Source: a virus. Taken from it: 58,154 nucleotides of DNA. The stretch is taken from IMG/VR virus record IMGVR_UViG_3300046692_000249, positions 1 to 58,154 of that record. One strand, written 5' to 3'. Of this stretch, positions 44 to 58,128 are shown piece by piece (the stretch's first letter is position 1; each line of letters begins with the position of its first letter). Under the pieces are notes generated by a model. It had not been told where the DNA came from, made no database searches, and worked only from the letters and a program-made list of their open reading frames with translations. Made by a program: the position numbers and the translations under genes.

Positions 44-61
44 TAAGTAAGAACTTACTTA
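44..61. promoter_or_regulatory. operator-like dyad, copy 1
   Basis: TAAGTAA-GAAC-TTACTTA, both arms perfect. It lies between the end of the upstream gene and a strong terminator, 47 nt before the start at 109. It belongs to the 18-copy family described under findings. Confidence 0.8.
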
Positions 62-6216: not shown

Positions 6217-6234
6217 CAAGTAAGGACTTACTTA
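6217..6234. promoter_or_regulatory. operator-like dyad, copy 2 (faces the minus-strand gene)
   Basis: CAAGTAA-GGAC-TTACTTA; one mismatch in the left arm. It lies 68 nt upstream of the minus-strand secreted-protein start. Between it and copy 3, a TTGTCA/TTGACA element reads as a -35 box on either strand. Confidence 0.7.
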
Positions 6235-6238
6235 CTAT

Positions 6239-6269
6239 TGTCAAGCCCCATCGGTTTGCGGTATTGTAA
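6239..6269 (+). promoter_or_regulatory. possible promoter for the tail tube gene
   Basis: TTGTCA followed after 18 nt by TATTGT, which runs straight into operator copy 3. The same -35 region read on the minus strand is TTGACA, so the spacer may hold back-to-back promoters. The -10 match is modest. Confidence 0.35.
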
Positions 6270-6284
6270 GTAAGTGCTTACTTA
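6267..6284. promoter_or_regulatory. operator-like dyad, copy 3
   Basis: TAAGTAA-GTGC-TTACTTA, perfect arms, extended by one more G:C pair on each side. It lies 43 nt upstream of the tail tube protein start. Confidence 0.8.
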
Positions 6285-7945: not shown

Positions 7946-7963
7946 TAAGTAATTACTTACTTA
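7946..7963. promoter_or_regulatory. operator-like dyad, copy 4
   Basis: TAAGTAA-TTAC-TTACTTA, perfect arms, extended by a C:G pair. It fills the gap between the chaperone stop and the tape-measure start and touches the ribosome-binding site, so there is no room for a promoter downstream. Confidence 0.75.
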
Positions 7964-12969: not shown

Positions 12970-12987
12970 TAAGTAAGCACTTACTTA
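12970..12987. promoter_or_regulatory. operator-like dyad, copy 5
   Basis: TAAGTAA-GCAC-TTACTTA, perfect arms, flanked by one extra G:C pair. It lies 27 nt before the gpL-like start, splitting M from L. Confidence 0.8.
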
Positions 12988-22202: not shown

Positions 22203-22220
22203 TAAGTAAGTCATTACTTA
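22203..22220. promoter_or_regulatory. operator-like dyad, copy 6
   Basis: TAAGTAA-GTCA-TTACTTA, perfect arms, 21 nt before the first lysis-region gene. Confidence 0.8.
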
Positions 22221-24140: not shown

Positions 24141-24158
24141 TAAGTAAGTCCTTACTTA
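24141..24158. promoter_or_regulatory. operator-like dyad, copy 7
   Basis: TAAGTAA-GTCC-TTACTTA, perfect arms, 62 nt upstream of phoH. Confidence 0.8.
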
Positions 24159-25024: not shown

Positions 25025-25046
25025 TTCCGCATGACGCTCGCTATAA
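25025..25046 (+). promoter_or_regulatory. CGCTATAA promoter, copy 1
   Basis: CGCTATAA at 25039-25046 preceded by a short TTCCGCATGACG block. It lies 28 nt before the next gene and right behind the phoH hairpin. Confidence 0.55.
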
Positions 25047-25880: not shown

Positions 25881-25898
25881 TAAGTAAGCACTTACTTA
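25881..25898. promoter_or_regulatory. operator-like dyad, copy 8
   Basis: TAAGTAA-GCAC-TTACTTA, perfect arms, 17 nt upstream of the helicase GTG start. Confidence 0.8.
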
Positions 25899-27236: not shown

Positions 27237-28364
27237 ATGTCCAAGCTGTCCTTTGCACAGATCCAGGACGAGCTGGACATGGAGTTCTTCCTCGAGCGCG
27301 AAAGCATCTCCTTTCGCGAGACGCGCGGCACGTCCGGCCTTCAGCTGAACATCAAGACTTGCCCGAACCCGGCCTGCCGTGACGAACGTTGGCGCACCTA
27401 TTTCGGGATCGATAACGGGAAGGGCAACTGCTTCGTCTGCGGCCAGTCCTTCAACAAGGTCCATTTCGTCAACAACTATTTCGATTTTGGCGACAACTGG
27501 CGCGCCACCTTCCAGATGTGCGAGGAGATCCTGCGCGACCAGGGCTATCGCCCGAAGCGAAAGGCAATGGTGCGCGTTGAGCATGGCGACGTGACGCTTC
27601 CGGTATCCGATCCGCTGCCTCTGCCGGATGGTTCGAACCTGGCCTACCTCGAGCAGCGCGGCTTCGGCCCCGACATCTGCAAGTATTTCGAGCTGCGTTG
27701 GTGCCAGTTCGGCTGGTGGAAGTTCAAGGATCCTGACGGCAATACGCAGACGCAGAACTTTAGCGATCGCGTCATCATTCCGGTCTTCGACCTCGACGGC
27801 ACGCTCAAGACCTTCCAGGGCCGCGATCTGACCGGCGAGTCGGCAAAGAAGTATCTGTTCCCGATGGAACTGCCCGGAACCGGCCGTTACCTTCTGAACG
27901 GTCACAATGCCGTGGCGACTGACCATGTCTGCATGGGCGAGGGCGGTTTCGACGTGGCTGCGATCAAGCTCGCCTTCGATGAGGATTCGGAGCTACGCCA
28001 TATCGTGCCGATCGGCTCCTTCGGCAAGCATCTGTCCTATGGTGCGCCTGATGGTGACGATCAACTCGGTCGCTTCCTGAAGCTGAAGGCGAGGGGCATC
28101 ACGACCGTCACGATCATGTGGGACGGCGAAGTCAACGCGCTGCTCGCCGCGCTCGACGCCGCGAAGGTTCTGTCCGGTATCGGATTGAAGGTCCGTATCG
28201 CTTTATTGCCTTTCGAGAAGGATCCGAACGAAGTCACCGGCGACGTGACGCGCAAGGCTTTCTACGAGGCACAGCTCTGGACGCCGGCGCTCGATATCAG
28301 GTGGCGTCTACGCAACCCCTATGCAGAGGACGCCAAGAAGAAGGCCGCAGCTGCAAAGGAATAA
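27237..28364 (+). CDS. DnaG-like primase
   Basis: 375 aa, one base after the helicase stop. An N-terminal zinc-ribbon (CPNPAC ... CFVC), then a TOPRIM core with the acidic motif MGEGGFD near residue 233 and WDGE near 300. It would make RNA primers with the helicase. It is shorter than bacterial DnaG and lacks an obvious C-terminal helicase-binding domain; the Lys/Ala-rich tail may replace it. Confidence 0.8.
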   Translation: MSKLSFAQIQDELDMEFFLERESISFRETRGTSGLQLNIKTCPNPACRDERWRTYFGIDNGKGNCFVCGQSFNKVHFVNNYFDFGDNWRATFQMCEEILRDQGYRPKRKAMVRVEHGDVTLPVSDPLPLPDGSNLAYLEQRGFGPDICKYFELRWCQFGWWKFKDPDGNTQTQNFSDRVIIPVFDLDGTLKTFQGRDLTGESAKKYLFPMELPGTGRYLLNGHNAVATDHVCMGEGGFDVAAIKLAFDEDSELRHIVPIGSFGKHLSYGAPDGDDQLGRFLKLKARGITTVTIMWDGEVNALLAALDAAKVLSGIGLKVRIALLPFEKDPNEVTGDVTRKAFYEAQLWTPALDIRWRLRNPYAEDAKKKAAAAKE

Positions 28365-28379
28365 GTAGCTCCTTACTTA
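28362..28379. promoter_or_regulatory. operator-like dyad, copy 9
   Basis: TAAGTAG-CTCC-TTACTTA; the left arm has one change. It starts with the primase stop codon, the only copy that touches a coding sequence. Confidence 0.65.
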
Positions 28380-31774: not shown

Positions 31775-31976
31775 GAAGGCCGAACTAACAGATGAAGCAC
31801 GACGACTGATCGAAACTATCCTCATCGATTCCAGATCCGAGGACTTCTCGACCCGGCAGGAGGCGCGGTTTGCGATCATAAAGGTGCAGATCTTATATGG
31901 CCGTGAAGCGTTGGAGGTGGTCGAGGAAGAGCTGGCAACTCGATTTGGCGAAATGCAAGCCGGCGTCTGGGGCTAA
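31767..31976 (+). CDS. small hypothetical protein
   Basis: 69 aa, overlapping the previous gene by 8 nt. A single amphipathic helical protein, acidic and without cysteine. Its TAA overlaps the stop of the convergent repC gene (CTAA at 31973-31976). No family recognised. Confidence 0.55.
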   Translation: MREKAELTDEARRLIETILIDSRSEDFSTRQEARFAIIKVQILYGREALEVVEEELATRFGEMQAGVWG

Positions 31977-33079
31977 CGTTTGAGTAATCGTCGGACCTCC
32001 TGCGTGAGGTCAACCTGTCCGGACTTGATAAGCCGGACCAGCGCGCGGAAATAACCGCCCGCATTCTTGATCGGTTCGGCCCCTGGCGTGGGCCGCGCCT
32101 GCAGCTGGATCACGTAGACCAAGGTCGCAGCCGCCCCGAGCAGCCCGATTTCGCGGCCAGCTTCCTCCCAGGCCGACGGCGACACGCCAAACGCGCCCCG
32201 CATCCTGCCGACGCCTAATATAAACTCCCGATCATTTCGCACCTGCCCAATAAACTCCATTGCGTCCGGGCACGCCCTAACCAGGTCATCTACGGTCGCA
32301 ATCGGCCGCTCCGGCTCCCTCACATCTTCAGAGCCATTGTTACAAGACTGGTCAGGGGCATATTTGTTGTTGTCTTTGTGACGGCAAGAATTGCCGGCAG
32401 AGGCGGCGTAATATCTGCCTTCTGCCTCCATACGGAGCTGATGCCAGGCATCACGGGCGCTGTCGGCCGATCCCGTCGCCGATCGCCGCGGCGTGACTCG
32501 TGAAAGCTCCAGAGCGCGCGCCGTCAGATCGGTGATGTCAGAGTCCGGATAGACCTCGGCAAGCGTCCTGAGAGCTTCCTGGGCTGATCTGCGATGAATG
32601 GTCAGCTCGTCAAAGGCCAGCGCCCGCTCGCGCTCGCGCTCCTGGATCGCAGCCAGGCGCTCATTCAGCTCCGGCAGCTTCTCGAGGAGAGGGGAGAGGT
32701 CGAAGCCATAGGCTCGGATGATCTGGCCTTGCGCCGATCGCTGGGCGAACCGCTTGCCGTTGGCGCTGTCCTTGGCGACGATTAGACCTTCCTCAATGAG
32801 CCTCGCGAGCGAGTAGCGCACCGAACGCTCCGGAATGCCGGTTCTTTCCACAAGAAACTCGTTAGAAGGCCATACGAGGATCCTGTTTTCGATGAGTTCG
32901 CCGCGATAGCAGCCGACGAGTTGGTCCAATACGAAACGGGCGCTGCTTGGCAGCTGCAGCACCTTTGCCGCGATTCGAGCGGCGTCGAAGAGTTCTTGCT
33001 TGTCCGCGGAGTCCTGCTCTCGCGCCGATGGCAGTGTCGGCTTGAGAGCACGCCAACCGGACGGTTGTGCGCTGGTCAT
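31973..33079 (-). CDS. repC: RepC-like plasmid replication initiator
   Basis: 368 aa on the minus strand; ATG complement at 33077-33079, with GAGGGA upstream. It closely follows the RepC plan: an N-terminal winged-helix region (about residues 25-195) with LVWPSNEFLVERTGI and KDSANGKRFAQR, then a variable A+T-rich linker, then the C-terminal domain (about 260-368) with GVSPSAWEEA and NAGGYFRALVR, all matching motifs of repABC-family initiators. In plasmids, RepC binds an origin inside its own gene. No repA or repB neighbours are present. Homology is strong; its use by this phage is inferred. Confidence 0.88.
   Translation of the reverse strand: MTSAQPSGWRALKPTLPSAREQDSADKQELFDAARIAAKVLQLPSSARFVLDQLVGCYRGELIENRILVWPSNEFLVERTGIPERSVRYSLARLIEEGLIVAKDSANGKRFAQRSAQGQIIRAYGFDLSPLLEKLPELNERLAAIQERERERALAFDELTIHRRSAQEALRTLAEVYPDSDITDLTARALELSRVTPRRSATGSADSARDAWHQLRMEAEGRYYAASAGNSCRHKDNNKYAPDQSCNNGSEDVREPERPIATVDDLVRACPDAMEFIGQVRNDREFILGVGRMRGAFGVSPSAWEEAGREIGLLGAAATLVYVIQLQARPTPGAEPIKNAGGYFRALVRLIKSGQVDLTQEVRRLLKR
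32330..32400. other. A+T-rich segment inside repC (candidate oriV)
   Basis: Within repC, the stretch encoding the inter-domain linker is clearly richer in A+T than the flanking coding DNA. RepC origins in repABC plasmids lie in such an A+T-rich patch in the middle of repC. Only position and composition support this here. Confidence 0.4.
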
Positions 33080-33128
33080 GATCCCTCATTTCCGGGTCAA
33101 AGCTTCGCCGCCCGACTCGAAAAGTCGG

Positions 33129-33157
33129 TTGACAAATCAGCGGTGATTCGGGATAAC
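33129..33157 (+). promoter_or_regulatory. sigma70-like promoter for the antisense RNA
   Basis: TTGACA (33129-33134), 17-nt spacer, GATAAC (33152-33157). It points away from repC and into the 33.2 kb terminator, with no gene in between. Confidence 0.7.
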
Positions 33158-33163
33158 CAAGAT

Positions 33164-33264
33164 GCTAATGGCTTGGTTTACGGTGACCCGACGGTCTAAT
33201 TGATCCCGAACTCCTTGCTTCTATTAAAGGCTCTGGGCTGGCAGGCTCGGAGCCTTTTGCTTTT
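33164..33264 (+). ncRNA. putative countertranscribed RNA opposite the repC leader
   Basis: About 100 nt between a sigma70-like promoter and an intrinsic terminator, with no credible reading frame, transcribed divergently from and antisense to the repC 5' leader. In repABC plasmids, a small antisense RNA (ctRNA, IncA, RepE) in exactly this position limits RepC synthesis. Same layout here; I cannot compare sequence with known ctRNAs. Confidence 0.6.
33226..33262 (+). terminator. terminator of the antisense RNA
   Basis: AAAGGCTC (33226-33233) pairs with GAGCCTTT (33250-33257), followed by TGCTTTTT. It would also lie just downstream of the minus-strand RHH gene but has a better U tract on the plus strand. 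Confidence 0.7.
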
Positions 33265-33267
33265 TCC

Positions 33268-33462
33268 CTAGTTTCTATCCTCAATTAAGCGGTGAACGGC
33301 ATCCGTAACGGCTTCAGACCGATTACGGTAAGCGCCGGACTTGATCAGCCGGTCGAGTTGCTCGGTCAGACGACCTTCCATCCACAAAAGCACTTGCTTT
33401 TCGCCGTTGGATTCTTTCTTGACGCGATACTTCTTCGCTGGCGTGATGTCCTGGATGCCCAT
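33268..33462 (-). CDS. ribbon-helix-helix transcription regulator
   Basis: 64 aa, minus strand. Residues about 22-62 fit the CopG/Arc-type RHH fold: a beta strand (KQVLLWM), then two helices (LTEQLDRLI and NRSEAVTDAVHRLIE). The N-terminal 20 residues are basic and could touch DNA. RHH dimers bind short repeated sites. It lies upstream of repC on the same strand and downstream of a regulatory gap, so it may control repC or the phage-wide dyads. Confidence 0.7.
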   Translation of the reverse strand: MGIQDITPAKKYRVKKESNGEKQVLLWMEGRLTEQLDRLIKSGAYRNRSEAVTDAVHRLIEDRN

Positions 33463-33670
33463 GCTTTGCCCTTCGACTCATGCAAATCACTTCGCTAGTG
33501 ATCGCCCGATTCTCACGATTTGTGAACCCCCATTATCTTACTCATCCAATGGTAGATGTTAACGGACCATTAACCATTCAAAATTGCATAAGATGCCTTA
33601 TGGAACTTATGAGCTGGCCTGACGACCGAGACGGCGAGATAGTGAATCACAGCTGAGGAGTCCAGAAAAA

Positions 33671-33688
33671 TAAGTAACTGTTGACTTA
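33671..33688. promoter_or_regulatory. operator-like dyad, copy 10
   Basis: TAAGTAA-CTGT-TGACTTA; one mismatch in the right arm. It is flanked by A and T runs, so the sequence could also fold as a weak terminator. Confidence 0.6.
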
Positions 33689-33714
33689 TTTTTTTTCATG
33701 TGGTCTGAGGTGAG

Positions 33715-33745
33715 GCGCAGTAACCCCATGCGCTTCTCGCTATAA
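33715..33745 (+). promoter_or_regulatory. CGCTATAA promoter, copy 4
   Basis: GCGCAGTAACCCC block, 10 nt, then CGCTATAA at 33738-33745, 60 nt before the XRE gene. Confidence 0.6.
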
Positions 33746-33805
33746 GTGAAAGCGTCAGAGCGAGAATGCAACGTAACAGAGCCGCACCATCCAGGGGATA
33801 ATAAA

Positions 33806-34198
33806 ATGGCTAAGGAAAAAGGAACACCCACGAGGTTTTCCAACTACATATTTAAGAAGCTGATGGAGTCGACGAAGTCTCAGAAAGAGATCGCCGAGGA
33901 AGCCGGTTACTCCAATCCGAACATGATCACAATGCTGAAACTTGGTCATGTTAAGCTGGCGCTCGATCGTGTGCCGGCAATGGCGAAAGCCTTGAACGTC
34001 GATCCTCTCGACCTGTTCAAGATCGCTCTGACCCAATTTTATGACGAACAAGCCGTCAGATTTCTGACCGAGATCATCGAAGGCGGTATCTCGCCTTCCG
34101 AGAAGAAGATCCTCCAGATCGTTCGGGACGCCAGCGGAAACGACACACCGCAGCTCACACCGGAGCGGGCAAAGCAGCTCGCCGAGATCTTCAAGTAA
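33806..34198 (+). CDS. XRE-like helix-turn-helix regulator
   Basis: 130 aa from ATG 33806, with AGGGG 8 nt upstream. A helix-turn-helix near residues 20-65 (KSQKEIAEEAGYSNPNMITML, LDRVPAMAKALNVDP) followed by a helical C-terminal half suited to dimerisation. XRE proteins bind palindromes as dimers with half-sites about one helical turn apart, exactly the 11-bp centre-to-centre distance of the phage dyads. It is the best candidate for the phage repressor; binding is inferred. Confidence 0.7.
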   Translation: MAKEKGTPTRFSNYIFKKLMESTKSQKEIAEEAGYSNPNMITMLKLGHVKLALDRVPAMAKALNVDPLDLFKIALTQFYDEQAVRFLTEIIEGGISPSEKKILQIVRDASGNDTPQLTPERAKQLAEIFK

Positions 34199-34211
34199 CT
34201 CGCTCCTGACC

Positions 34212-34241
34212 TGACGCGGTTCCAAAGGCGGCCTGCTATAA
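34212..34241 (+). promoter_or_regulatory. CGCTATAA-like promoter, copy 5 (inside a terminator stem)
   Basis: GACGCGGTTCC block, then TGCTATAA. The TATAA lies in the loop of the terminator that follows the XRE gene, so it may be chance. Confidence 0.3.
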
Positions 34242-34265
34242 ACGTGGCAGGCCCTCTTTTTATTT
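34230..34265 (+). terminator. intrinsic terminator after the XRE gene
   Basis: GGCCTGC (34230-34236) pairs with GCAGGCC (34247-34253), then CTCTTTTTATTT. Confidence 0.8.
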
Positions 34266-34272
34266 GCCGACA

Positions 34273-34290
34273 TAAGTAATCACTGACTTA
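34273..34290. promoter_or_regulatory. operator-like dyad, copy 11
   Basis: TAAGTAA-TCAC-TGACTTA; one mismatch in the right arm. 20 nt before the next gene. Confidence 0.65.
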
Positions 34291-34310
34291 ACCTACGAGG
34301 AAAGCGAAAC

Positions 34311-34538
34311 ATGTCTAACGAGTCCCCCTTCCTGCGCAATCTGTCGATGAATGACGAGCAGGCTTACCAGTTGGCTATGGAGCTTGAAGGTAAACAGGAG
34401 GACGCCATGAACGGTTGCACGATCTACAGCGGCAAGCATCCCGTGCATGGCAATATCCACATCGTCATCCCGGCGATGGGCGAGGCTAAGGCACTTCTGC
34501 CCTTCGATCTGAAGCCTGTCGTTCTCCGTTCTTTTTGA
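34311..34538 (+). CDS. small hypothetical protein
   Basis: 75 aa, with GAGGAAAG 7-14 nt upstream and operator copies on both sides. No family recognised; the middle (GNIHIVIPAMGEAK) is beta-like and the N terminus helical and acidic. Possibly a small regulator or modulator of host functions. Confidence 0.6.
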   Translation: MSNESPFLRNLSMNDEQAYQLAMELEGKQEDAMNGCTIYSGKHPVHGNIHIVIPAMGEAKALLPFDLKPVVLRSF

Positions 34539-34547
34539 GCGTAGAAC

Positions 34548-34565
34548 TAAGTAATAGATTACTTA
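34548..34565. promoter_or_regulatory. operator-like dyad, copy 12
   Basis: TAAGTAA-TAGA-TTACTTA, perfect arms, 20 nt before the vWA gene. Confidence 0.8.
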
Positions 34566-34585
34566 TGCGAAGGAGTTAGCGAAGC

Positions 34586-36919
34586 ATGAACCGCGATATC
34601 ATGGAGCTGCGCGAGGTCGTCCAGAAACTCGTTCCTCTGCTCGCTGGCAAGGGGCTCGTTGTGACGCAGCGCGGCTCCCAGGCTTACGTGCGGACCAACA
34701 CCACGACGAAGCAGCCCGAAGAGGTCAACATCCCGAACATCCCGGACAATGCGTCCCAGGAGTTCGTCTGGGCGATCCAGGGTTTCATCGACCACGAAGT
34801 CGGCCACATCCTGCACACCGACTGGCTCTGGTATGGTGGCAAGGGTGGCGTATCGGAAGCCGACCTGCGCAGTCCGGCAAAGCGCGCCTTCATGAACACC
34901 CACAATATCGTGGAAGACGTGATGATCGAGCGGGAAATGGCGAAAACCTTTCCTGGCGCCCGGCGCAACATCTCCAACACCCGCAAGTGGTTCCTGGCGA
35001 AGATCACCGACGAGGCGCTCAAGGGCGTCAAGGATCCTCGCGAGCAGTTCAACTACCTGATCGTTCCGGCCATGCGCGCCCTCGGTGATCACGAGGAAAT
35101 GCAGGAGTGGATGGATAAGGGCAGCTGGTGGAAGAACAAGTATGTCGCCGAGCTCCTCAAGACGATGAAGCCGGCAACCCTCGACCTCCTCAAGACCTGC
35201 ACGACGACCAAGGAAACGCTGGTCATCGCCGAAGAGCTCCATGCGATCATCATGGGCAAGGTCGCACCCCCTGCCCCTCCGAAGCCGCCTGAAAAGAAAA
35301 AGGAAGACAAGAAGGACAAGGGCAAGTCGAAGGACAAGCCCGAGAAGGAGGCTGGCGAAGGCGAAGGTGACGGCGAGCGCGATCACAAGGAGCCGGAAAA
35401 GAAGGAAGAGGACAAGAAGCCCTCCGACGACGGCAAGGGGAAGAAGGACGATGAAGACGATAAGGGCGAAGGCGCCGGCGACGACGAAGACGCCGAAGCG
35501 GAAGCAGATGAGCCCGACGCTGGCGATGATGACGGCGATGAAGACGCTGAGCCCGAAGAAGACGCCGGCGACGACGAGGACGATCCTGCTGCCGATGAAG
35601 CTGATGGCGAAGACGCTGACGATGATGACGATGAGCCTGCGTCCGGCGCATCAGATGATGACGGTGAGGATGAGTCCGAGGCTTCCGGATCGGCTGCGGC
35701 CGACGAAGATGACGGTGAAGACGATGAACCGGCAGGTGCTGGTTCTGGTGGCGCCGGTGGAGCCGACGAGGACGGCGAAGGCTTTGAAGGATTCGACGAA
35801 GATGCACCGGGCGGCCCGCAGATCATTACGGCCGGCGCCGACGGTGGTGGAGTAGGCGACCCCGACGACGAGACTGAGGACGAAACTCAGGGCGGCGGAG
35901 GCGGTGTCGGCAACAGTATGTCCAAGTCCCTCTTCGACTTTGAGGACGGTGATTTCAACGAGGTCGACATGTCGGCGCAGATCGCCATCAAGATCTCCGA
36001 GGAAGCCGTCCTTGCGATGGATCCGAAGCAGTATCTCGTCTACACCCGCGACCTTGATCGCATCGAGCCTGTGGTGCCGCCCGAGGACATGAAGAAGACC
36101 TGGGTGCCGTCTCTCGAGGAAGACACCCGGCAGATGACCTCGAAGATGCGCAAGGATATCGAGCGTATGATGGCATCGCAGTCGCACGTCATCCGCACGC
36201 CTGGTCATCGAAACGGCAAGCTTCATGCGCCGTCGCTCTTCCGCGTGCCGCAGGGTGATCCTCGCGTCTTCACGCAGAAGCAGGAGCATGTGTCGAAGGA
36301 TACGGCTGTCGAACTGGTGATCGACAATTCCGGCTCGATGAGTGGCGCGAAGATGAAGCTTGCCATGACGGCCGGCTATGCGCTCTGCACCACGCTCGAT
36401 GCGGTCAAGATCGCCCACGAGGTCATCGGCTTTACGACCGGTGGCTGGCATCACCTGCCCCACACGATCCGGCAGGCGATCACCGACGATCTGCACAAGT
36501 CCTCAATCCAGTGGGACCGCGTTGGCCCGCTGGTGCTGCCGATCTACAAGACCTTCGAGGAACGCATCACCGCGACCGTCAAGGCGCGTTTTGCCTATAT
36601 GCGCGAGGCGCAGGCCGGCATCTCCGGCAACGTCGACGGCGAGTCCCTCGAATACTGCGCCGAACGTCTGCTCAAGCGCCCTGAAAAGCGCAAGGTGATG
36701 ATGGTTCTGTCTGACGGTCAGCCGGCCGGCTCCCACAAGGCAGGGCCGCATCTGTCCCATGTCGTCAAGCAGCTTAGCAAGATGGGAATCGAATGCATCG
36801 GCATCGGTATCCAGGATGACAGCGTGAAGCGCTACTATCCGAAGTTCACGGTCCTGCATAATGCCGCGGACCTCCCCGGCCAGGTGATGGGCGAAATCAA
36901 GCGCATCCTGTTGTCCTGA
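34586..36919 (+). CDS. CobT-like vWA protein with HEVGH motif
   Basis: 777 aa. Residues 60-130 hold a metalloprotease-like HEVGH (His70, His74) followed by NTHNIVEDVMIE, the N-terminal layout of vWA-like metallopeptidases. Residues about 228-445 are an extreme Asp/Glu/Lys low-complexity region. The C-terminal vWA domain has a complete MIDAS: Asp580-x-Ser582-x-Ser584, and later Asp in SDGQPAG. This architecture matches cobaltochelatase CobT and its phage relatives; the AAA+ partner (CobS/MoxR-like) is next. As no cobalamin genes are near, a role in remodelling a phage or host complex is more likely. Confidence 0.75.
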   Translation: MNRDIMELREVVQKLVPLLAGKGLVVTQRGSQAYVRTNTTTKQPEEVNIPNIPDNASQEFVWAIQGFIDHEVGHILHTDWLWYGGKGGVSEADLRSPAKRAFMNTHNIVEDVMIEREMAKTFPGARRNISNTRKWFLAKITDEALKGVKDPREQFNYLIVPAMRALGDHEEMQEWMDKGSWWKNKYVAELLKTMKPATLDLLKTCTTTKETLVIAEELHAIIMGKVAPPAPPKPPEKKKEDKKDKGKSKDKPEKEAGEGEGDGERDHKEPEKKEEDKKPSDDGKGKKDDEDDKGEGAGDDEDAEAEADEPDAGDDDGDEDAEPEEDAGDDEDDPAADEADGEDADDDDDEPASGASDDDGEDESEASGSAAADEDDGEDDEPAGAGSGGAGGADEDGEGFEGFDEDAPGGPQIITAGADGGGVGDPDDETEDETQGGGGGVGNSMSKSLFDFEDGDFNEVDMSAQIAIKISEEAVLAMDPKQYLVYTRDLDRIEPVVPPEDMKKTWVPSLEEDTRQMTSKMRKDIERMMASQSHVIRTPGHRNGKLHAPSLFRVPQGDPRVFTQKQEHVSKDTAVELVIDNSGSMSGAKMKLAMTAGYALCTTLDAVKIAHEVIGFTTGGWHHLPHTIRQAITDDLHKSSIQWDRVGPLVLPIYKTFEERITATVKARFAYMREAQAGISGNVDGESLEYCAERLLKRPEKRKVMMVLSDGQPAGSHKAGPHLSHVVKQLSKMGIECIGIGIQDDSVKRYYPKFTVLHNAADLPGQVMGEIKRILLS

Positions 36920-36970: not shown

Positions 36971-36988
36971 TAAGTAATGACTTACTTA
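36971..36988. promoter_or_regulatory. operator-like dyad, copy 13
   Basis: TAAGTAA-TGAC-TTACTTA, perfect arms, 39 nt before the AAA+ gene. Confidence 0.8.
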
Positions 36989-37027: not shown

Positions 37028-38323
37028 ATGAGCCAGTTAGCAAACGCTGGTGCAGCTGCCACTGCACCGGACGATAAAATTCTGTGCCAGATCGACAACG
37101 TGCGCGTCCACTCGATCCAGAGCCACATCAAGAAGAACCATCCCGATTGGACGGTCGAACGCTACCAGGCCGAGTTCCCTGGTGAGCCGCTCTTCTCTCA
37201 GACCGCGCTTGATGTCATCGAGCGCCAGAAGAAGGAAAAGGAGCTCGCTGCAGCCGCTGCGCCCCAGGCCAACATGGCTATCTCTGCAGGTCTCGGGCCT
37301 TCCAAGATGAGCTTCAAGAACGCCATGTTCCATGAGCTGTTCGAACTCGGCAACGCGGCCGCTGCCATGTCGTCGAAGGGTGCGCCGATCCCGGTCAAGG
37401 TGCTTGAAGGTCTCGACGCTCAGTCGCTCGACTACCTGCCCGAGCTCGACAAGAGCTACGTCTTCAATATCGACCTGCTCAAGAAGGTCATCATCGGCAT
37501 GGAACTGAACATGCCGACCTACCTCTGGGGCTTCCACGGCACCGGCAAGACCACGATCCTGCAGCAGGCAGCCGCCCGCACGCGCCGGCCGTTCATCCGC
37601 GTCCAGCACACGATCAACATGCAGGAGTCGGACGTTCTCGGTCAGTGGACCGTTCGCTCCAAGGAAGTCGAAGTCGAGGAGCTCGACAACGACGGCAAGA
37701 AGGTCGTGGTCAAGAAGCAGCAGTCCGTGACCGAATACCAGCTCGGTCCCTTGCCGCTCGCCATGATCAACGGCTGGGTCTACTGCGCTGACGAATACGA
37801 CTTCGCCATGCCGTCGGTCACTGCCGTCTATCAGCCGGTTCTCGAAGGCCAGTCGCTGCTGATCAAGGACGCTCCTCCGCACTTCCGCAAGATCGCCCCG
37901 CATCCGAACTTCCGCTTTGTCGCGACCGGCAACACCAACGGCGTCGGCGACGAAACTGGCCTCTATCAAGGCACGCTCGTTCAGAACGCCGCAAACTATT
38001 CCCGCTTCGCGATCACCGAAGAGGTCGAATATATGGAAGCGAAGATCGAGACCGCGATCCTGCAGTCCAAGACCGGCATCGACAGCGCATCGGCTGGTAA
38101 GATCGTCAAGATGGCGAACGAAGTCCGCAAGATGTTCCGCGACGGCAAGATCACCATGACGGTCTCGCCGCGCGAGCTGATCCGCTGCGCCTCGCTCGGC
38201 ATTGCTTACGGTGGCAACTGGTCGCTCGGCATGGAGCTCGCCTTCGCCAACCGTCTGTCGCGCGTCGATAAGAAGGTTGTCCAGGAATACATGCAGCGCG
38301 TCTTCGGTGGAGTCGCTGCATAA
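37028..38323 (+). CDS. CobS/MoxR-like AAA+ ATPase
   Basis: 431 aa, with GAGGG 10 nt upstream. Residues 1-80 resemble the small N-terminal domain of CobS; the AAA+ core has Walker A GFHGTGKT (Lys174, Thr175), Walker B YCADEYDFA, sensor FVATGNTNG and a C-terminal helical lid. MoxR/CobS ATPases work with vWA partners such as the protein just upstream to insert or remove cofactors or remodel complexes. Pairing is conserved by gene order; the target is unknown. Confidence 0.82.
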   Translation: MSQLANAGAAATAPDDKILCQIDNVRVHSIQSHIKKNHPDWTVERYQAEFPGEPLFSQTALDVIERQKKEKELAAAAAPQANMAISAGLGPSKMSFKNAMFHELFELGNAAAAMSSKGAPIPVKVLEGLDAQSLDYLPELDKSYVFNIDLLKKVIIGMELNMPTYLWGFHGTGKTTILQQAAARTRRPFIRVQHTINMQESDVLGQWTVRSKEVEVEELDNDGKKVVVKKQQSVTEYQLGPLPLAMINGWVYCADEYDFAMPSVTAVYQPVLEGQSLLIKDAPPHFRKIAPHPNFRFVATGNTNGVGDETGLYQGTLVQNAANYSRFAITEEVEYMEAKIETAILQSKTGIDSASAGKIVKMANEVRKMFRDGKITMTVSPRELIRCASLGIAYGGNWSLGMELAFANRLSRVDKKVVQEYMQRVFGGVAA

Positions 38324-38967
38324 TGGCAATCGTTCGCGATCCGAAGCTCGACAAGGTCCAGGTCCGGGCCTTTGCATCCAAGGTTCTCAGGCGCGTTCAC
38401 GCGCTTGGGGCCAGGACGCAGACCATCGACGATATCGAAAGTGAGTTGTGGGTTGCCTGGTGCATCGCCTGCGATCGCTACAATGCCGAAGCTGGTGCTG
38501 CGTTCGCGACCTTCCTTTATTGCGGCATGCGCCGGCATATCAACCGGTGGATCGAGAAGAACTTCGAACGCTTCCACGAAGAGACCATCGCCGCATCCCT
38601 GGACGCGGATATCGAGCTCGATGGTCAGGAAGGTCGCGGCAGCCAGGTCGGCCAGCTCGTCGCCGATCCGAACATGACCCAGGACGAAGCCTATCAGCGC
38701 GAGAACTGCTTCGCCTACGCGCTGAGCCGGGTATCGCCGCGCGCCGGCCAGTTCCTGAAGTTCCTGAAGGACCATCCGCCCGAGCTGATCCAGAGCATGA
38801 GGGATCTCGAAGCCAAGGCCGCATATGCCAAGGAGTGCGGCGTCAATTACGCCATGCCCCACCGTCTCACCTCATCGATGATCCTCGACTTCATGGGCGC
38901 CAGCCGCGTCGAGCGCAAGCAGATCATGGATGAAGTTACCCAGATCGGGCAGCTGATTTCGCAGTAG
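38323..38967 (+). CDS. sigma-70-like factor (region 2 present)
   Basis: 214 aa, TAATG overlap with the ATPase. Residues about 35-80 fit sigma region 2: DDIESELWVAWC, then FATFLYCGMRRHINRWIEKN, which matches the core-binding and -10-recognition helices. A shorter, less clear region 4-like segment is near the C terminus (residues 140-205). It may direct RNA polymerase to the phage CGCTATAA promoters; that link is inferred. Confidence 0.65.
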   Translation: MAIVRDPKLDKVQVRAFASKVLRRVHALGARTQTIDDIESELWVAWCIACDRYNAEAGAAFATFLYCGMRRHINRWIEKNFERFHEETIAASLDADIELDGQEGRGSQVGQLVADPNMTQDEAYQRENCFAYALSRVSPRAGQFLKFLKDHPPELIQSMRDLEAKAAYAKECGVNYAMPHRLTSSMILDFMGASRVERKQIMDEVTQIGQLISQ

Positions 38968-44147: not shown

Positions 44148-44165
44148 TAAGTAAGCACTTACTTA
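44148..44165. promoter_or_regulatory. operator-like dyad, copy 14
   Basis: TAAGTAA-GCAC-TTACTTA, perfect arms, starting 3 nt after the TATAA box, so it would cover the transcription start. Confidence 0.82.
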
Positions 44166-49448: not shown

Positions 49449-49466
49449 TAAGTAATTGATTACTTA
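49449..49466. promoter_or_regulatory. operator-like dyad, copy 15
   Basis: TAAGTAA-TTGA-TTACTTA, perfect arms, 12 nt before the SbcD-like gene. Confidence 0.8.
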
Positions 49467-53971: not shown

Positions 53972-53989
53972 TAAGTAAGCACTTATTTA
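53972..53989. promoter_or_regulatory. operator-like dyad, copy 16
   Basis: TAAGTAA-GCAC-TTATTTA; one mismatch in the right arm. It abuts the -10 box, so it would cover the transcription start. Confidence 0.75.
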
Positions 53990-55080: not shown

Positions 55081-55098
55081 TAAGTAATCACTTACTTA
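55081..55098. promoter_or_regulatory. operator-like dyad, copy 17
   Basis: TAAGTAA-TCAC-TTACTTA, perfect arms, 62 nt upstream of the RNR operon. Confidence 0.8.
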
Positions 55099-58110: not shown

Positions 58111-58128
58111 TAAGTAAGCACTTACTTT
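58111..58128. promoter_or_regulatory. operator-like dyad, copy 18
   Basis: TAAGTAA-GCAC-TTACTTT; one mismatch at the end. It abuts the TATAA box and precedes the last gene by 17 nt. Confidence 0.75.

Follow-up and report, generated by a model that had tools for sequence, protein, structure and literature searches.

The window analyzed here is the whole of a 58,154-base virus record, and at 33268-34198 it carries a gene for a ribbon-helix-helix (RHH) protein and a gene for an XRE protein on either side of one intergenic gap. The question raised by this locus is whether the two proteins form a single master switch or belong to different systems. The initial annotation had favored a lysis/lysogeny or copy-number switch made of both. 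The open reading frames bear out its arrangement, with repC and RHH reading leftward and XRE rightward, and the 343-bp gap is found at 33463-33805 with the contents described for it, namely a dyad copy, a CGCTATAA box and a CATAAG palindrome. Its picture of minus-strand regulators amid plus-strand lytic genes holds for RHH and repC but not for XRE, which reads with the lytic genes. Our analysis indicates that the hub is not one switch and consists of three adjacent modules, XRE, RHH/repC and a dif-like palindrome. We view it as a junction between a plasmid module (repC, a candidate antisense RNA, RHH and the dif-like site) and a putative phage-silencing module (XRE and its predicted operators).

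The phage-plasmid and its features

The window has no terminal repeats. Between 31 and 36 kb it shares 92-94% identity with the Rhizobium phages B1VFA, V1VFA-S and RHph_X66 (X66), which are 118-122 kb long, about 94% with the resident plasmid pRlX6 and about 80% with pLM21S1 of Sinorhizobium, a plasmid-like prophage without an integrase (PMC4447125). Given this close identity to relatives of 118-122 kb, the window is judged from its sequence to be about half of a ~120-kb RepC phage-plasmid of the B1VFA/X66/pRlX6/pLM21S1 type. The announcement of B1VFA and V1VFA-S calls them likely prophage-plasmids, lists parA, parB, repC and a DNA-binding protein without a name, and reports no operators (PMC12509600). 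The extrachromosomal prophage state proposed earlier agrees with the existence of pRlX6 and pLM21S1 as resident RepC plasmids, and the proposed lack of an integrase agrees with its absence from pLM21S1 and from the annotation of X66, the window itself covering only about half a genome. The features of the window are collected in Table 1.

Table 1. Genes, predicted operators and other elements of the window
Feature	Position	Strand	Remarks
RepC plasmid replication initiator	31973..33079	-	368 aa; Pfam RP-C, NCBIfam RepABC_RepC
Candidate counter-transcribed RNA	33129..33262	+	antisense to repC leader
RHH protein, probably of the repC replicon module	33268..33462	-	64 aa
Putative XerCD dif-like site	33581..33610		contains palindrome 33587-33602 (CATAAGATGCCTTATG); between RHH and XRE
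Predicted repressor promoter TTGACT-N17-TCTGAG	33681..33709	+	TCTAAG in relatives; -35 inside variant operator
Second promoter-like element CGCTATAA	33738..33745	+	upstream of XRE; no abutting operator
XRE/HTH_3 putative repressor	33806..34198	+	130 aa from conserved ATG
75-aa ORF	34311..34538	+	ORF of similar size between XRE and CobT in relatives examined
CobT-like VWA protein	34586..36919	+	
CobS-like AAA ATPase	37028..38323	+	
Sigma-70 region 2 protein (phage sigma factor)	38323..38967	+	
Predicted operator	45..60		in N17 spacer of TTGAAA...TATGAT
Predicted operator, first of pair	6218..6233		PWM
Predicted operator, second of pair	6268..6283		PWM
Predicted operator	7947..7962		before tape-measure gene
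Weak operator-like site, 14 bits	12938..12953		PWM
Predicted operator	12971..12986		in N17 spacer of TTGCAA...TACAAT
Predicted operator	22204..22219		before lysis-region genes
Predicted operator	24142..24157		before phoH
Predicted operator	25882..25897		before DnaB-like helicase/primase operon
Predicted operator, one half-site altered	28363..28378		PWM
Predicted variant operator AAGTAA-CTGT-TGACTT (AAGTAACTGTTGACTT)	33672..33687		XRE's own promoter; one A-type and one C-type half-site
Predicted operator AAGTAATCACTGACTT	34274..34289		before 75-aa ORF
Predicted operator AAGTAATAGATTACTT	34549..34564		before cobT-like gene
Weak operator-like site, 11 bits	36925..36940		PWM
Predicted operator AAGTAATGACTTACTT	36972..36987		before cobS/sigma/dnaE operon
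Predicted operator	44149..44164		directly after CGTTATAA
Weak operator-like site, 17 bits	44499..44514		PWM
Predicted operator	49450..49465		17 nt after start of GCTATAA
Predicted operator, one mismatch	53973..53988		PWM
Predicted operator	55082..55097		before ribonucleotide reductase operon
Predicted operator	58112..58127		after GCTATAA; before thymidylate synthase in X66

The XRE protein and its neighborhood

XRE matches Pfam HTH_3 above the cut-off, and its helix-turn-helix (HTH), with helices at residues 26-33 and 39-46 and putative specificity residues N37 and H48, is the only domain that Pfam finds. The structure model is all-helical, its Foldseek neighbors are XRE proteins (best E 7e-3), and by both Pfam and the model the 130-aa protein has no S24 peptidase domain. 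Homologues are encoded by Shinella, RHEph10, Pararhizobium, Methylobacterium, Cupriavidus and Acinetobacter elements and by hundreds of plasmids of Klebsiella, E. coli, Enterobacter and Salmonella, and in all homologue loci examined the neighborhood is the same, XRE being accompanied by a small ORF, a CobT-like gene and a CobS-like gene. The 75-aa ORF of the window has no matching family in Pfam or NCBIfam. The tblastn comparison of XRE with its Klebsiella homologue gives 33% over 99% (E 2e-10), and the Klebsiella protein in turn compares at 56% with CYRAN_45 of Cyrano. By homology and neighborhood, the XRE of the window falls in the XRE repressor family of the SSU5/pKpn/AB phage-plasmids.

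Several further observations concern this cassette. A terminator-like hairpin with a T-run (34230-34253 of the window) lies directly 3' of XRE and parts it from the 75-aa ORF. In Cupriavidus (L117:9017-12615) the cassette adjoins a ParA-type gene and a TrfA replicon, that is, the replication module is exchanged and the repressor cassette stays. X66 and pRlX6 (L004) have an extra minus-strand gene (L002:23067-23420) between the dif-like site and XRE that is absent in the window; its product has a signal-peptide-like start, and it is a candidate cargo gene expressed in lysogeny.

A dispersed family of promoter dyads

When searched with up to 2 mismatches, the window contains 39 matches to AAGTAA-N4-TTACTT, as compared with 6.7 +/- 2.8 in shuffled sequences, and it contains 14 exact copies where about 0 are expected. 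The same dyad ranks first in an unseeded enumeration of all gapped palindromes. Each complete close relative holds 24-30 exact copies, reversed-pattern controls hold 0, and none is found in the 318 kb of pRlX1, a conjugative RepC plasmid of the same host group that served as the negative control. A symmetric weight matrix (PWM) finds the 21 sites of Table 1, all of them (21/21) intergenic in a sequence of which about 9% is non-coding, and nearly all have a plus-strand gene starting 11-97 nt downstream. Whole relatives have 39-59 sites (39 to 44 in those of the same group) versus 0.2-11 after shuffling, counts that come from seeded matrices and that are less sharply defined for the enteric sites, where the shuffled background is 4-11. 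The dyads of X66 precede the terminase, portal, capsid, tape measure, lysis, helicase, CobT and CobS genes as well as the ribonucleotide reductase, thymidylate synthase, rIIA and NAD genes; none precedes repC or RHH. Two sites in X66 flank ParA/ParB-like genes, and therefore some partition genes may be under the same control.

Around the dyads, -10-like hexamers cluster at two fixed distances from the dyad center, one directly upstream and the other directly downstream (32 and 27 sites versus a mean of 1.6 in the alpha, or Rhizobium, set and, independently, 40 and 38 sites versus 3.2 in the gamma, or enteric, set). The sites at 45 and 12971 lie exactly within the 17-bp spacer of good sigma-70 promoters, and the geometry as a whole fits repression by occlusion. 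The predicted promoter upstream of XRE is kept in 4 lineages, and the register of the variant operator on it is conserved in pLM21S1 and in two further relatives (L007, L010). Because this variant dyad overlaps the gene's own -35, it suggests that XRE is under weak negative autoregulation.

The CGCTATAA box is one of several sites of a second promoter motif, GCRYTCC-N12-13-GCTATAA, which has roughly 15-20 sites per relative, some without an adjacent operator; in the plus strand of the window they are at 25040, 28408, 33739, 43506, 44138, 44494, 48485, 49433, 53963 and 58102. The phage sigma factor (38323-38967) is a candidate reader of this motif. Enteric elements of the SSU5 type (L043-L048, L087-L092, L105-L116) have a further dispersed dyad, AAACAA-N1-TTGTTT, in 9-13 copies, which is unrelated to the XRE dyad. 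The XRE homologues of the non-phage plasmids of Cereibacter and Gemmobacter are accompanied by no such dyad family; a repeat considered in Cereibacter was rejected, since its plasmid also has a type I CRISPR system, whose array the repeat probably represents. A search of the open-access literature for AAGTAAG returned nothing relevant.

Covariation of XRE residues with the dyads

Every phage-plasmid genome examined that has an XRE homologue also has its own dispersed dyad family. AGTCA-N4-TGACT occurs 40 and 28 times in two Methylobacterium elements, 23 times in Acinetobacter and 12 times in Cupriavidus, and the enteric elements have dyads of GTAAG types. Aligned in one common register, the half-sites have either A or C at base -4: by unseeded counts, which are low for RHEph10 (3), Cyrano (7) and PhiR41 (7), the A-type comprises the window group, Shinella and the enteric elements, and the C-type comprises Methylobacterium, Pararhizobium, RHEph10 and Acinetobacter. 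At XRE residue 37, N is present in 13/13 A-type proteins and in 0/8 of the C-type, which have Q, R or K there or a deletion, and residue 48 is H, R or K in the A-type versus D, E or N in the C-type. Inside the HTH recognition region, the two classes are told apart at columns 37, 48 and 49 and at no others, and in the structure model residue 37 is placed just before the recognition helix (39-46) and residue 48 just after it. Residues 11, 13, 79, 88 and 121, outside the recognition helix and loop, separate the classes too, so some of the separating positions lie away from the DNA. On a tree of CobS, in which Acinetobacter and Cupriavidus have long branches, the -4 trait changes at least 2 times and a single A-type clade is rejected (p-AU 0.006). 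We consider this change of recognition element and target base together, twice, to be the strongest evidence from sequence that XRE binds the dyads.

Replication and putative dimer-resolution elements

RepC scores 195 bits against NCBIfam RepABC_RepC (cut-off 150), and the usual repA-repB-repC operon is absent; RHH precedes repC, and a ParA-like gene lies elsewhere in X66. The RHH protein scores 15.2 bits against Pfam RHH_1 (cut-off 20.5, E 0.02), its structure model has two helices only and no beta-strand (pLDDT 65), and it is named CopG/RHH in relatives; a search of viral contigs with RHH gave no relatives. RHH likewise precedes repC, with the same antisense-like promoter and hairpin, on the conjugative non-phage plasmid pRlX1, where no XRE is annotated in the compared stretch beside repC-RHH. 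Because it is paired with repC on this dyad-free plasmid, RHH is probably part of the plasmid replication module, together with an antisense RNA. The plus-strand promoter (TTGACA-N17-GATAAC, from 33129) and 14-bp terminator hairpin (33226-33257; z = -2.3 for the hairpin region) resemble those of a counter-transcribed RNA and are kept between repC and RHH in 8/8 replicons searched, pRlX1 included. An Rfam search of 31900-34600, taken to E 10, yielded no match beyond chance hits below threshold. In pRlX6, the repC annotation (L004:18082-19228) consists of two pieces that overlap, and further long genes look split, by real decay or by sequencing errors.

The palindrome CATAAGATGCCTTATG is the sole exact copy in the window and is conserved in all RepC phage-plasmids compared. 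The spacer of 4 nt that it was said to share with the dyad is a coincidence, the conserved form being CGCATAA-N6-TTATGGAAC (the core in the window begins TGCATAA). In the GTDB genome collection this form occurs almost only in Hyphomicrobiales replicons. A dif matrix built from 79 sites, nearly all from Hyphomicrobiales, has a single hit in the window (38 bits; core test CGCATAA-N6-TTATG) and one strong site per phage-plasmid of the Rhizobium group and Methylobacterium; in Shinella and Pararhizobium the single sites are weaker. In all alphaproteobacterial relatives checked for its position, the site falls between RHH and XRE. The matrix finds no site in the enteric or Acinetobacter elements, where an integrase adjoins XRE. 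The palindrome is absent beside repC-RHH of pRlX1. For reference, dif of E. coli is GGTGCGCATAATGTATATTATGTTAAAT (PMC3025954). The palindrome is best read as a putative XerCD dimer-resolution site, and the earlier suggestion of a regulatory element gives way to its match to Rhizobiales dif and its occurrence once per genome.

Proposed regulation and alternatives

We regard it as very probable, from the sequence comparisons above, that XRE is the master lysogeny and immunity repressor of this RepC phage-plasmid. From the positions of the sites and the covariation we infer that an XRE dimer would bind about 40 symmetric operators per genome, T-AAGTAA-N4-TTACTT-A, 21 of them in the window. These adjoin the -10 box of almost all lytic operons, some falling within the -35/-10 spacer and others covering the transcription start. 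Binding there would repress rather than activate, silencing structural, lysis, replication and nucleotide genes, and XRE would probably tune itself through the weaker, mixed operator that covers the -35 of its own promoter. RHH and repC point in the opposite direction and have no canonical operator, so plasmid replication could continue under lytic silencing, with RHH and the antisense RNA most likely setting the copy number and host XerCD resolving dimers at the dif-like site. The cited part of the report on Cyrano (PMC9928086) annotates CYRAN_45 as a putative repressor, gives its transcription in the lysogen as 10-fold above the prophage background and describes induction by ciprofloxacin; mitomycin C did not induce pLM21S1 (PMC4447125). 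The induction route of the XRE system is likely an antirepressor.

RHH and XRE could instead form a bistable switch of the CI/Cro kind within the 343-bp gap, RHH being the regulator on the lytic side. Proteins of the RHH class often have regulatory roles, and here the two genes do flank one intergenic region with conserved elements; RHH nevertheless adjoins repC on pRlX1, a plasmid without dyads, it is missing at the XRE locus of the enteric, Acinetobacter and Cupriavidus elements, where the dispersed dyads are still present, and in X66 and pRlX6 a further gene stands between it and XRE, all of which makes such a switch quite unlikely. We are just as doubtful that the palindrome serves RHH or XRE as an operator: a perfect dyad within a regulatory gap would suit such a role, but its conserved N6 form, its dif match, its single occurrence per genome and its absence at the repC-RHH genes of pRlX1 speak against this. 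As the hub consists of separate modules, the lysis/lysogeny switch is right for XRE, with its dispersed operators and residue/operator covariation, unsupported for RHH, which pairs with repC on pRlX1, and wrong for the palindrome. The copy-number switch fits the repC/RHH side, where the antisense-RNA-like promoter and terminator are conserved, and does not fit elsewhere.

Two other readings keep the dyads as regulatory sites. XRE might be an activator, with the dyads switching on middle or late phage promoters, as the association of dyads with promoters would allow in a phage that also has a sigma factor and a second promoter motif. The dyads, at fixed -10 offsets, cover the core promoter and not the usual upstream position of an activator, and in the cited part of the Cyrano report the homologue's transcription in the lysogen exceeds the background of the prophage (PMC9928086); we find this reading very unlikely overall, and XRE could be an activator at some sites, against which the overlap with the -10 box argues. 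Alternatively, another conserved phage protein, such as the 75-aa ORF product or the sigma factor, would read the dyads and XRE would be a bystander. The 75-aa ORF always adjoins XRE and has its own predicted operator; it matches no Pfam or NCBIfam family, however, and base -4 tracks the recognition-helix/loop residues of XRE in two independent switches, which leaves the bystander reading scarcely credible.

With XRE as the repressor, we lean toward the broader view that the XRE/small-ORF/CobT/CobS cassette, together with about 40-60 symmetric operators at promoters, makes up the immunity system shared by a whole alpha/beta/gamma phage-plasmid supergroup that includes SSU5, pKpn and AB, in which the code relating residues 37 and 48 to base -4 predicts mutual exclusion. 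Clinical enterobacteria and Acinetobacter commonly harbor phage-plasmids of these three groups, which are able to carry resistance genes (PMC9600943), and the regulation sections of a 2024 review, as cited here, name no repressor-operator system for them (PMC11652158). With the operator set and the two-residue specificity code, immunity, element exclusion and induction become directly testable, and a dispersed-operator system would explain how replication genes remain active when about 40 lytic promoters are silenced.

Comparison with known systems

The replication side of the locus resembles repABC copy control in its RepC family and in the antisense promoter and terminator of the repC leader, and differs in that RHH replaces repA/repB upstream of repC and in that no Rfam ctRNA family is matched. 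Unlike repressors of the lambda CI, 434 and LexA type, XRE has no S24 autocleavage domain, and dozens of predicted operators are present here as opposed to the few at one switch in lambda and 434. Among the closest described counterparts is CYRAN_45 of the SSU5-like Cyrano, a homologous, lysogen-expressed protein in the same neighborhood of XRE, small ORF, CobT-like and CobS-like genes (PMC9928086), the enteric and Rhizobium forms sharing about one-third identity. CYRAN_45 is divergent from the small ORF and has an integrase beside it where the window has the dif-like site, and the cited part of the Cyrano report gives no operators (PMC9928086).

As with Rep of mycobacteriophage L5 and Cluster A, there are many sites per genome, and site and repressor specificity diverge among relatives (PMC6550527). 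The Cluster A stoperators are asymmetric, lie mostly off promoters and block elongation (PMC6550527), whereas the promoter sites found here are beside -10 boxes. The C1 repressor of phage P1, which has 22 dispersed, asymmetric operators (PMC8546580), offers the parallel of a plasmid prophage with one repressor at many genome-wide operators, autoregulation being only predicted here. The P1 operator is the 17-bp asymmetric ATTGCTCTAATAAATTT, in contrast to the symmetric 16-20-bp dyads of the present system, which are about twice as numerous and would be read by a small XRE protein different from C1. Because the operators are symmetric, AAGTAA-N4-TTACTT, we describe XRE as a protein that would work like C1 and do not class it as C1.
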